Of a stretch of DNA of 35,856 nt, positions 22,525 to 26,282 are shown one piece after another. The DNA is from Prochlorococcus sp. AG-463-F15 (GTDB lineage Bacteria; Cyanobacteriota; Cyanobacteriia; PCC-6307; Cyanobiaceae), in assembly GCA_003211755.1 (NCBI GenBank), contig QCRS01000007.1:1-35856 (forward strand). The letters run 5' to 3'. The notes beneath the pieces are model-generated. The model was not told where the DNA came from and did no database searches. It worked only from the letters and a program-made list of their open reading frames with translations. Position 1 is the stretch's first letter, and each line of letters starts with the position of its first letter. Made by a program: the position numbers and the translations under genes.

Positions 22525-22827
22525 ATGGACGAAACTAAACAGTCTGCAGGTCAAGGTATGGGTTCTAGCAAGGGCTCAGACTCGTTAAGTGGTGAGAAAG
22601 CCCAAAAGCCAAAGAAGAAAAAATGGGCTAATAAGTCGGTTGAAAGTAATGAGAGCCAAGAGGTGCTATTAAAAGTTGGTAGCCTTGAATACAAAGCACC
22701 AGGCAAAAGGCAAAGGGTCGCATTAGGTGCAATTGTGTTAGGAGGAAATGTGCTTTTGGTTGTAGCTTCATTGCTTTATTTTTATAATCCTGCTTTTAAA
22801 GAATTTGTCTACAATCTGGGAAGATAA
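22525..22827 (+). CDS. Hypothetical protein with basic N-terminus and one C-terminal helix
   Basis: This is a 100-aa protein. The first 40 residues are polar and probably disordered, with a lysine cluster (KAQKPKKKKWANK). A short conserved-looking block follows (LLKVGSLEYKAPGKRQRVALG). One transmembrane helix covers about residues 68-88 (IVLGGNVLLVVASLLYFY), ending in FKEFVYNLGR. It reads like a small tail-anchored membrane protein with a cytoplasmic basic arm. Function is unknown. It converges with the aldolase gene across 229 bp. Confidence 0.65.
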   Translation: MDETKQSAGQGMGSSKGSDSLSGEKAQKPKKKKWANKSVESNESQEVLLKVGSLEYKAPGKRQRVALGAIVLGGNVLLVVASLLYFYNPAFKEFVYNLGR

Positions 22828-23056
22828 TCAACTCTCAAGGCTAGTGATATGCCATGAATAAGCTCTATTCTCTATCGCAAATCTTTGCCAATCTACCTAT
22901 AAATTGAAACTTGACCAATGTTATTTGCTTCCAAAACATATGTAATAATATTATCTTGTATATTTATGGCCTTATAATTTCCTTGAACATAGCAACTTCT
23001 TCGATTATTAGCCTTTAGAATTCTCTCTACAAATGAAGGACAATATATTTATAGCT

Positions 23057-23731
23057 CTATAGGCCTTGGCCGTAATTAAGGGATTTAAATTTTCTCAAAA
23101 TATTTGTCATTTCCAAACTGCTCAGTCGTTTTGGTTCGCCTAGTTGGCATGATTTTATATAAATATTGCATAGATTTTCAACCTCTATAGCAACCTTAAG
23201 TGCATTATCTAGATTTTTACCAATTGCTACCTGGCCGTGTTGAGCTAGTAAACATGCCAAACGTCCTTCTAGAGCCTTTATGGCATTTTTGGAGAGTTCA
23301 ATGGTTCCGAATGTTGCATATTTAGAACAGCGTATATTTTCTCCTCCTGCAACTGCAACCATATAGTGGAAACTAGGAATTTCTTTTGCATGGCAAGAAA
23401 GCGCAGCTGCATTTATTGAATGACAATGTACTATTGAATTTATTTCCTGGCGTTGGTTTAGAATTTCTGCATGTAGTCGCCATTCACTTGATGGTTTCAT
23501 AGAACTTTTATGCAAAGCTGTTTTCATAAGATTCCCCTTCATATCAATTTCTAGGAGATCATTAGGCCCCATATCTTTATATGGTATGGAACTTGGGGTG
23601 ATAAGCATTCCTCCATTTATCCGAGCAGAGATATTGCCAGAAGTTCCATTATTCATCCCATAAGAATCCATCTTCTCAGTAATCGAAATTATCTTTACCC
23701 TCAGGGAATGCTCATCTTCTATAAGCACCAT
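23057..23731 (-). CDS. Class II aldolase/adducin family protein (FucA-like)
   Basis: This 224-aa protein keeps the full active site of the zinc-dependent class II aldolase family. It shows NGTSGNIS near residue 28 (phosphate loop), SSEWRLH with Glu83 as the likely catalytic base, VHCHS with zinc ligands His102 and His104, and AQHGQVA with His165. Family members include L-fuculose-1-phosphate aldolase, ribulose-5-phosphate 4-epimerase and methylthioribulose-1-phosphate dehydratase. Sequence alone does not separate these here. No kinase, isomerase or transporter for such sugars is nearby. It stands alone in AT-rich DNA, which fits acquired or retained accessory metabolism. Confidence 0.82.
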   Translation of the reverse strand: MVLIEDEHSLRVKIISITEKMDSYGMNNGTSGNISARINGGMLITPSSIPYKDMGPNDLLEIDMKGNLMKTALHKSSMKPSSEWRLHAEILNQRQEINSIVHCHSINAAALSCHAKEIPSFHYMVAVAGGENIRCSKYATFGTIELSKNAIKALEGRLACLLAQHGQVAIGKNLDNALKVAIEVENLCNIYIKSCQLGEPKRLSSLEMTNILRKFKSLNYGQGL

Positions 23732-24141
23732 ATTTATTTACCATGTAATTGAATAATTCAAAATTCTAATTATCTCTCACCAATTTGGCTGGATTAAAAT
23801 GATTAATTAAAGTTTGAAGCAAATAAGCTTTATTTGCCTTCTTTCGAATCAAAAACAAACCTGAACTTCTTGCTTAGAAACTATCGCTAAATAGAGTTGG
23901 GTTGGTCACTCCCATAAGAGTAATTAGCTCAACTACTGCAGTAAAAGTTGGAGCAAATATTTAATTGTTATCCGACTTGCCTTATGGCAGAAAATGTTGT
24001 CACTTAATACTTGCTTATGCATCAAGTTCTTGCGCCACCACGAAACTATGGCTAAAAATTGAAGTGGAGCTTGTTCAGTGCAACCTGAATCTTTAAGTTT
24101 AAGTAAGAATATGCTCATAAAGAGCACTTTCGCTGTTGAAT

Positions 24142-24160
24142 GTATCGGCTGATACTTTTT
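24142..24160 (+). terminator. Small hairpin with T run in a leader
   Basis: GTATC (24142-24146) and GATAC (24151-24155) form a 5-bp stem with a GGCT loop, followed directly by five T. It lies immediately before the AAGGAGG of the next gene. The stem is short, so terminator or attenuator activity is only possible. Confidence 0.25.
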
Positions 24161-24167
24161 AAGGAGG
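24161..24167 (+). promoter_or_regulatory. Strong Shine-Dalgarno sequence for the GTG start at 24174
   Basis: AAGGAGG ends 6 nt before the GTG. It is the best support that the 60-aa frame behind it is translated. Confidence 0.7.
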
Positions 24168-24173
24168 CCTGAC

Positions 24174-24356
24174 GTGAGTTCGCAAAGCCCTCGACCCCTA
24201 AAGAAAGAAAAAGTTTCTCCTCAACGAAAAACTACTTTGAAGTGGAGCAGTGATGGGGAGCTTTCTTCTGTTGATATGACTAGGATTCTTGATAAATTGG
24301 CAAAGACTGAGCTGACTGAATGCGATTTAGCTTGCAACTTAGAAGAATTGCCCTAG
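24174..24356 (+). CDS. Small basic hypothetical protein
   Basis: This 60-aa protein has a GTG start and a near-ideal ribosome binding site. The N-terminal half is Lys/Arg/Pro/Ser-rich and probably flexible (RPLKKEKVSPQRK). The C-terminal half forms an amphipathic helix (DMTRILDKLAKTELTE) with two cysteines in ECDLACNLEELP. It has no membrane segment. I do not recognise it; such small proteins are frequent in picocyanobacteria. Confidence 0.6.
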   Translation: MSSQSPRPLKKEKVSPQRKTTLKWSSDGELSSVDMTRILDKLAKTELTECDLACNLEELP

Positions 24357-24565
24357 TACCAAAAGAATATAGATGTAAAAATAATTCCCTTTGCCTGTCA
24401 TTTCGTCATAGGAACGAAGGCTAAGAGAATAGGCTAAACAATGCCATCGGCATACAAATTTCTTTAGTAATGGATGTTCTTGTGAGTGTCTTAATTCCTA
24501 AATCTGAACATAGTTCAGTTAAGTAAACCCTTATTATTTAATCATTTTCAATCTTCCTACAAATA

Positions 24566-24805
24566 ATGAGAGTGTCTCTGTTTGTAATTGCTGCTTTGTT
24601 TTGCGGCTTTTCAGCTTTTTCTTTCTTTACAGGATATCGCTCAGCTTTTGAGGCTGATCAGGCATGTCATGCAGAAAAATGGAACATCTATGGAGAGGAT
24701 TCTACTTTTGATTGTGATCATGATTTAGAAACGAATAAATGGATTCTTTATCAAGTTGGATCGAATCACCAAGCTGCAAAAGTTGTAAAGCGCTATCATT
24801 ATTAG
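24566..24805 (+). CDS. Small exported or membrane-anchored hypothetical protein
   Basis: This is a 79-aa protein. Residues 4-23 form a hydrophobic segment (SLFVIAALFCGFSAFSFF) typical of a signal peptide or anchor. A polar domain with two cysteines follows (QACHAEKW, FDCDHDLE) and aromatic/basic residues to the end (QAAKVVKRYHY). The two cysteines could form a disulfide outside the cytoplasm. Gaps of 209 bp before and 545 bp after suggest a separate transcript. Function is unknown. Confidence 0.55.
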   Translation: MRVSLFVIAALFCGFSAFSFFTGYRSAFEADQACHAEKWNIYGEDSTFDCDHDLETNKWILYQVGSNHQAAKVVKRYHY

Positions 24806-25350: not shown

Positions 25351-25512
25351 TTAAACTTTGCGATCTCGTTTATGCCTATTTGGCTTCTTTCTTGGTGCTT
25401 TGATCATTCGAGATGTTTTCCCTGATAAATAAGAAGCTTCGGCATTGCTTACCCAAAAGCCTATTAATGAAATAATGATTACGATAAGTAGAATATAGAT
25501 ATAGACCCACAT
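25351..25512 (-). CDS. Small single-helix membrane protein, 53 aa
   Basis: The ATG at 25512 opens a 53-residue frame. Residues 1-20 are strongly hydrophobic (MWVYIYILLIVIIISLIGFW), followed by a short polar region and a very basic tail (APRKKPNRHKRDRK). This anchor-plus-positive-tail pattern follows the positive-inside rule and is unlikely by chance, so I consider it a real small membrane protein. No Shine-Dalgarno sequence is visible. A start-less frame ends 10 bp upstream on the same strand. Confidence 0.5.
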   Translation of the reverse strand: MWVYIYILLIVIIISLIGFWVSNAEASYLSGKTSRMIKAPRKKPNRHKRDRKV

Positions 25513-25731: not shown

Positions 25732-25845
25732 ATGGATGTGATTCTTCCGTTTTCTCTTGTTTTCGTTTTTGTAATCCTTGCAATTATAGGAGTTATGAGA
25801 TTATTTTGGGAGTTAACAGTTTCAGCTAAACGTAGGCCTGTTTGA
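25732..25845 (+). CDS. 37-aa single-helix membrane peptide coupled to the NdhF-like gene
   Basis: The frame starts ATG GAT GTG and encodes one hydrophobic helix (residues 4-21, ILPFSLVFVFVILAIIGV) with a basic end (SAKRRPV). Its TGA at 25843-25845 shares the A with the next ATG (TGATG). This is the same coupling used at real junctions elsewhere in the window and strongly supports translation. It could be a small partner subunit of the NdhF-like membrane protein; that is inference from the overlap. Confidence 0.55.
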   Translation: MDVILPFSLVFVFVILAIIGVMRLFWELTVSAKRRPV

Positions 25846-26282
25846 TGCCCTCTTTATTAGACGTTGCTTGGATTATTCCATTCGCTCCGATTTTGGGAGC
25901 ATTTTTTGTATGGATATTGCTTATTAGCTTCAATAGAACAATAAACAGACTCACTAAGCCTGTTTCATATTTGTTGATTATTTGCGTTGGGATTTCAACA
26001 CTTCTTAGCTTTGCACTATTCCAAAAACATTTAAAAGGTAATATATTGGACTTGGATTTAATTCTACTAAGTCTCAAGTTACACCTAGATTTATATGTTA
26101 ATAACCTTGCAGCAATAGTATCAACGATATTTGGATTCTTTGTGATTTTAATAATGGCTACCTCCTATTATCTGATGGAGCGTAAAAAAGGATATGTGAG
26201 CTATTTTATTTTCTTAGCTCTTGCATGTGGTTCACTATTCTTCTTTATATTGAGTGGTGATCCTTTTCAGAGGTATTTTTAA
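25845..26282 (+). CDS. NdhF-like protein truncated to its N-terminal part
   Basis: This 145-aa polytopic protein starts MPSLLDVAWIIPFAPILGAF. It matches the N-terminal pattern of NDH-1 subunit 5 (NdhF): AWxIP at the start, then SFNRTINRLTKPVSYLLIICVG in two helices (residues about 27-55), then a third and fourth helix ending FILSGDPFQRYF. Full-length NdhF proteins exceed 600 aa and continue with the proton-channel helices, of which nothing is found downstream. Either it is a remnant of a duplicated ndhF or a short protein kept for its own role. Upstream coupling to a 37-aa peptide argues for the latter. The NdhF match is from memory of the family pattern. Confidence 0.6.
   Translation: MPSLLDVAWIIPFAPILGAFFVWILLISFNRTINRLTKPVSYLLIICVGISTLLSFALFQKHLKGNILDLDLILLSLKLHLDLYVNNLAAIVSTIFGFFVILIMATSYYLMERKKGYVSYFIFLALACGSLFFFILSGDPFQRYF

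Follow-up and report, generated by a model that had tools for sequence, protein, structure and literature searches.

A Prochlorococcus-specific NdhF1 paralogue, apparently cut to its first four helices and kept by selection

The locus and its two reading frames

The assembly of Prochlorococcus sp. AG-463-F15 is 55% complete and consists of 69 contigs, one of which (QCRS01000007.1) supplied the stretch of 35,856 nucleotides analysed here, hereafter the window. It contains a short peptide gene followed directly by a gene for a small NdhF-like protein. The features are as follows:

25732..25845, plus strand: single-helix peptide of 37 aa (ATG at 25732, 37 codons, stop TGA at 25843-25845)
25845..26282, plus strand: 145-aa protein with four predicted helices (NdhF helices 1-4 only), derived from NdhF1 according to sequence matches, tree and model
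25926..25967, plus strand: helix 1-2 loop (codons 28-41), the most conserved segment of the 145-aa protein
26181..26210, plus strand: helix 3-4 loop with the R..GYV motif (codons 113-122), second in conservation

The larger frame starts with ATG at 25845-25847, runs for 145 codons without an internal stop and ends with TAA at 26280-26282. Its start shares one base with the stop of the peptide frame in a TGATG junction. An earlier note, made from the letters alone, had described a clean start, no internal stop and a TGATG overlap with a one-helix peptide, and reading of the sequence bears this out.

Of the seven window neighbours scanned, five could be named and are not ndh genes but members of other Pfam families (class II aldolase, glycosyltransferase, sugar transferase, CobD and ketol-acid reductoisomerase), and two have no Pfam match; small unknown frames accompany them. 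Three such frames (100, 60 and 79 aa), at 22525-24805 upstream of the pair, keep their position beside the NdhF-like gene in many relatives, whose neighbours were grouped by clustering only, without annotation; upstream-frame clusters c3, c4 and c1 adjoin the gene at 14, 14 and 20 loci, respectively. Just upstream of the pair, on the minus strand (25351-25512), lies a 53-aa frame that probably forms a single membrane helix and ends in a basic tail. The element TTGCTA[GT], possibly part of a promoter, occurs within 220 bases upstream of the short gene (L067-L146) at 15 of 80 loci as compared with 3 in shuffles; its distance to the gene varies among loci, and its conservation was first judged by eye.

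Residues 1-142 of the 145-aa protein align with positions 1-146 of the 675 in the NCBIfam profile of NdhF (PRK07376; E = 1.2e-19), with a score of 70.1 bits, below the curated cut-off of 963. NdhF of Thermosynechococcus in the PDB also matches it (E = 4e-10), and a Pfam search gave no real match (best E 0.19). A chance match is excluded by these E-values together with the conserved relatives described below. Comparison with a full ndhF elsewhere in the genome, as the earlier note had proposed, revealed a separate, true ndhF in the same assembly (G000:C63), with 543 codons up to the contig edge, a score of 1017 bits, above the curated PRK07376 cut-off, and the glutamate motif WELVG retained. 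Because the real ndhF sits on that contig, the 145-aa frame is a second NdhF-like gene, not the ndhF of the genome.

An AlphaFold2 model built from 61 aligned sequences (pLDDT 87.7, pTM 0.80) has its main helices at residues 10-28, 37-60, 87-110 and 117-136, and two strands within 65-85. Ranks 1-9 of a Foldseek search of the PDB are NdhF of cyanobacterial and plant NDH, with TM-scores (by query) of 0.80-0.86, and the protein is thus predicted to have the fold of NdhF helices 1-4. In antiporter-like subunits the channel residues are a glutamate in helix 5, a lysine in helix 7 and a histidine in helix 8. The 145-aa protein ends before helix 5, so that it has none of the later proton-channel helices, and the three residues are absent together with their helices. 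Both the PRK07376 match and the model agree with the earlier description of N-terminal NdhF helices lacking the proton-channel part. Positive charges mark the cytoplasmic side of a membrane protein (the positive-inside rule); since both conserved loops are positively charged, the rule suggests that both face the cytoplasm.

Descent from NdhF1 and distribution

A search of 99 genomes, 61 of them from the same family (own genome included), found the paralogue in 28 of the 61: in 23 it is short, with open frames of 146-178 codons before trimming to the start, and in five (G021, G033, G035, G036 and G050) it has about 300 aa. Its size is about 145-160 aa in most lineages. The closest relatives of the window protein in this search share 52-59% identity with it and belong to the same genus. 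Full-length homologues at the locus, which the earlier note had named as the outcome that would speak against it, were found at none of the 27 relatives' loci fetched and read. A second genome scan matched 102 stretches, 94 of which were confirmed and 80 kept; the frame is 129-159 aa long at 78 of these 80 loci and 299-302 aa at the other two. Among the 78, L127 and L128 (129 and 135 aa) are so short probably only because an internal TTG was taken as the start. Since the two sets overlap, their counts are not independent. Together, 101 short rows collapse to 96 distinct ones.

All but one of the 80 loci are titled Prochlorococcus. The exception, L116 (NYVZ01000003.1), is a contig of a Pelagibacteraceae-labelled MAG that carries the Prochlorococcus paralogue, and is most likely a misbinned Prochlorococcus contig. 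Carriage by or origin from phages was considered and rejected: 50,697 phage records gave no match, 15 pattern matches in viral contigs yielded none that was confirmed, and a PHROGs search gave nothing below E 0.05.

Genomes were typed by inference from phycobiliprotein gene counts where these were made and from genome size elsewhere. The counts cover 26 family genomes: 18 have 0-2 such genes (Prochlorococcus type, including the own genome with none) and eight have 10-13 (Synechococcus type). Thirteen of the Prochlorococcus-type genomes carry the paralogue, as against none of the Synechococcus type. The five Prochlorococcus-type genomes without it (G014, G026, G027, G045 and G047) are 65-84% complete, and all ten tested that are at least 88% complete have it. 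Prochlorococcus is a group known for shedding genes, and such constant presence therefore indicates a needed function.

In a maximum-likelihood tree of 70 rows covering roughly 150 N-terminal residues, a single clade (support 100/99) unites the short forms with those of ~300 aa and adjoins the NdhF1 of Cyanobiaceae. NdhF3 and NdhF4 of the CO2-uptake NDH-1 complexes are distant homologues of the 145-aa protein, yet the rows resembling them, labelled so by inference from lower scores and separate grouping, stand apart as the outgroup (100/100). On this tree the 145-aa family arose from the NdhF1 of marine picocyanobacteria. The least changed ~300-aa form, that of G036, is the first to branch in the paralogue clade; the others are scattered among the short forms, and the positions of G033, G035 and G021, which are long branches, are unsure. 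Such scattering would mean that the cut was possibly repeated at nearly the same place, and truncation to about four helices may have occurred more than once. In alignment with NdhF1, the helix 5 glutamate is missing from all five ~300-aa forms, the helix 7 position is still lysine or arginine in each, and the helix 8 histidine remains only in that of G036; ordinary proton-channel activity is unlikely for these forms.

Selection on the protein, the peptide and the helix 1-2 loop

Of the 3003 pairs among 78 short genes, 1181 have dS of 0.1-1.5 by the Nei-Gojobori method, and 36 non-overlapping pairs were drawn from them. In 28 pairs (dS 0.107-0.908) dN/dS is 0.117-0.621, with a median of 0.23; the other eight (dS 0.98-1.43) give 0.42-0.92, a poor estimate at such distances. 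The gene thus does not follow the neutral pattern of a pseudogene, and purifying selection argues against decay. In this respect the earlier note was right to doubt simple decay, and neutral evolution across strains, which it had set as the contrary result, did not appear for the protein. A decaying remnant of a duplicated ndhF, which the shortness of the protein and its stepwise sizes (~300, then about 145-160 aa) would lead one to expect from erosion, is hardly credible given dN/dS well under 1, open frames at all 80 loci and nothing NdhF-like beyond the stop. NdhF remnants past the stop had been suggested by extended matches with internal stops; scored against shuffles, there were none (window -0.9 bits, best real sequence of 100 at 3.3 bits, shuffled 99th percentile 6.3 bits). 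By these comparisons of sequences, the gene is a Prochlorococcus-specific NdhF1 paralogue, cut to helices 1-4 and kept by selection.

Selection is distributed unevenly along the protein. With the 36 pairs pooled, pN/pS is 0.135 in the helix 1-2 loop and 0.32 in the helix 3-4 loop, followed by helix 1 (0.42), helix 2 (0.45), helix 4 (0.51), helix 3 (0.58) and the lumenal loop (0.71). Outside its two motifs the short protein changes fast, faster than NdhF1, relatives being 28-57% identical to the window protein; this pace would be compatible with a new role as well.

The peptide is less constant. In a strict pattern scan, which also took in two NdhF1 fragments left out of the count, it lies directly upstream of the paralogue at 9 of 28 loci, the window included; G002 has a 40-aa version there, as judged by eye, and the second genome scan found a 37-aa frame directly upstream at 20 of 80 loci. 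As the earliest-branching relative, G036, has the peptide paired with the paralogue, the pair is suggested to be as old as the paralogue. The peptide is missing or changed in many lineages, and eight close pairs of 37-aa frames give a pooled pN/pS of 1.06 (range 0.43-2.36), so that it appears relaxed or drifting in that group. The coupling proposed earlier is thus the weaker part of the note: it agrees with the pairing in G036 but not with these losses. The suggested search in relatives recovered the protein in Prochlorococcus-type genomes, often with the peptide absent or altered.

A peptide profile matched (E 0.01) in 35 of the 99 genomes tallied, and many of these have additional copies at other places. 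The pattern IPxxxGxxLxxLAxxGIxEL recurs in two longer kinds of about 47 aa; the window peptide is therefore read as a member of a small multi-copy one-helix family, 3 of 21 loci being without a match to its pattern. Members of this family, of 37-47 aa and with that pattern, occur at several loci of Prochlorococcus-type genomes among L155-L175 (e.g., L156:1474-1617, L168:1471-1614 and L173:1468-1611). A tie to NdhG was weak (PDB, E 9.7 with a single sequence) and vanished with a ten-sequence profile. The one-helix NDH-1L subunits NdhP and NdhQ are like the peptide in having one helix; among PDB chains including these two it found no lasting match, although in so short a sequence a match could be missed.

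The helix 1-2 loop is conserved in a mirror-image manner in the paralogue and in NdhF1. The two proteins share the loop motifs FNRTxNRLxKPV and GYV, and T32, R35, L36 and P39 are invariant in all 96 distinct short rows. In the short forms the loop (residues 29-41 for entropies, 28-41 elsewhere) has the lowest entropy of the segments, 0.50 bits, as against 1.97-2.48 bits in the faster ones (helices 2-4 and the lumenal loop). In NdhF1 of Prochlorococcus it has the highest, 0.87 bits (14 rows), and in NdhF1 of Synechococcus 0.18 bits (7 rows). With all rows obtained, 29 from Prochlorococcus and 21 from Synechococcus, the mean pairwise difference of the NdhF1 loop is 0.299 versus 0.123. The corresponding values are 0.234 versus 0.191 for helix 1, 0.353 versus 0.336 for helix 2, 0.231 versus 0.300 for the lumenal segment, 0.084 versus 0.156 for helix 3, 0.034 versus 0.054 for loop 2 and 0.039 versus 0.061 for helix 4; since helix 2 here slightly exceeds the loop, the loop is the least conserved segment only in the 14-row entropies. 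When NdhF1 was scanned in 132 windows of 14 columns, Prochlorococcus exceeded Synechococcus most in eight that start at 22-28 and 31, all of which overlap the loop; the one starting at 28 ranks fifth (excess 0.175, median window -0.021). R35 remains in 19 of the 29 NdhF1 rows from Prochlorococcus and in all 21 from Synechococcus, compared with 96 of 96 distinct short rows.

The correspondence is not complete from genome to genome. Where the paralogue has ~300 aa, NdhF1 retains the ancestral loop in three of five genomes (G033, G035 and G036) and has a changed one in G021 and G050. An ancestral NdhF1 loop stands beside a short paralogue in G004 and G005, and a relaxed loop occurs in five incomplete genomes in which the search located no paralogue (G007, G014, G043, G045 and G047). 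The relaxation is correlative and comes from a single large clade; it fits a takeover of the loop's function by the short form.

A possible place in NDH-1L

What could four helices of NdhF do by themselves? NDH-1 of Prochlorococcus serves cyclic electron flow and respiration. Because the loop is strictest in the short form and unusually variable in NdhF1 of Prochlorococcus but not of Synechococcus, we tentatively favor, at somewhat less than even confidence, a non-pumping accessory subunit of NDH-1L to which the contact made by the helix 1-2 loop has passed; binding to NDH-1, the membrane side and the partner are all what we infer. An outline would be as follows: the 145-aa protein, as an accessory or stabilizing subunit, would sit alongside the membrane arm at its NdhD1/NdhF1 end. 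Its basic helix 1-2 loop (FNRTxNRLxKPV), exposed to the cytoplasm, would be available there to a partner that NdhF1 once held through its own loop. After this takeover by the copy, the loop of Prochlorococcus NdhF1 would be free to change, as in subfunctionalization. The 37-aa peptide may have been an early co-translated partner, later dispensable in several lineages. A small partner of NDH-1, as the earlier note supposed, is thus the likeliest of the readings, with the peptide tied to it less firmly.

The protein resembles NdhF1 (PRK07376; chain F of 6l7o/6hum) in aligning over residues 1-145, in its predicted four-helix fold and in its loop motifs, and differs in having about one-fifth of the length, with no later helices, channel Glu/Lys/His or horizontal helix; its pattern of conserved sites is opposite to that of Prochlorococcus NdhF1. 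ND2 of higher animals has lost helices 1-3. There, too, the front helices of such an antiporter-like subunit prove separable from the rest, but they are the part lost, whereas here only they survive, as a separate protein. NDH-1L structures show NdhD and NdhF joined through NdhP, NdhQ, lipids and carotenoids (PMC6992706 and PMC7021789), and NdhP and NdhQ touch both (PMC6992706).

Next in standing, though rather unlikely, is that the paralogue no longer belongs to NDH-1 at all and works by itself as a small membrane protein, its loop binding a new partner and the change in NdhF1 being coincidental. The fast divergence of helices 2-4 and the lumenal loop (pN/pS up to 0.71) and the lack of ndh genes among the named window neighbors would suit it; however, the retained loop is NdhF1 sequence, the very one relaxing in NdhF1, and the model still has the NdhF fold. 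An assembly or replacement factor, binding NdhD instead of NdhF1 to give a shorter non-pumping or intermediate NDH-1, possibly with a second NdhD paralogue, is unlikely. Its NdhF-like front end without a channel agrees with this, as does the report of two ndhD paralogues with opposite diel timing in MED4 (accessible text of PMC2663038), but helices 1-4 may miss the NdhF-NdhD contacts made through the horizontal helix and carotenoid (accessible portion of PMC6992706). The bicarbonate/proton system that the earlier note had offered as another home is very improbable: relatives of NdhF do serve in such uptake systems, but the protein derives from NdhF1, not from NdhF3/F4-like rows, the channel glutamate is lost even in the ~300-aa forms, helices 5 onward are absent from the short one, and the named window neighbors are sugar transferases and metabolic enzymes, so that nothing points to such a system.

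Our literature search, with most subscription papers beyond its reach, found no description of a short NdhF paralogue in Prochlorococcus. The accessible text of the MED4 study that counted the ndhD paralogues names no second NdhF-like gene (PMC2663038), and the main text of a 2025 survey of NDH-1 evolution including Prochlorococcus CCMP1375 does not contain the term ndhF (accessible version of PMC12038448).

Few phototrophs on Earth are as abundant as Prochlorococcus. It is a speculative and improbable extension that a binding function of NdhF1 was split off onto the four-helix protein at about the time when Prochlorococcus gave up phycobilisomes, leaving an NDH-1 with a lineage-specific extra subunit that could dock it to photosystem I or the Pcb antenna, where links based on phycobilisomes would have served before. 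What the sequences point to is a conserved lineage-specific offshoot of NdhF1 that is a real gene family rather than a broken leftover, and the way in which paralogue and NdhF1 mirror each other in conserving the loop provides a direct, testable prediction of where this protein would bind.
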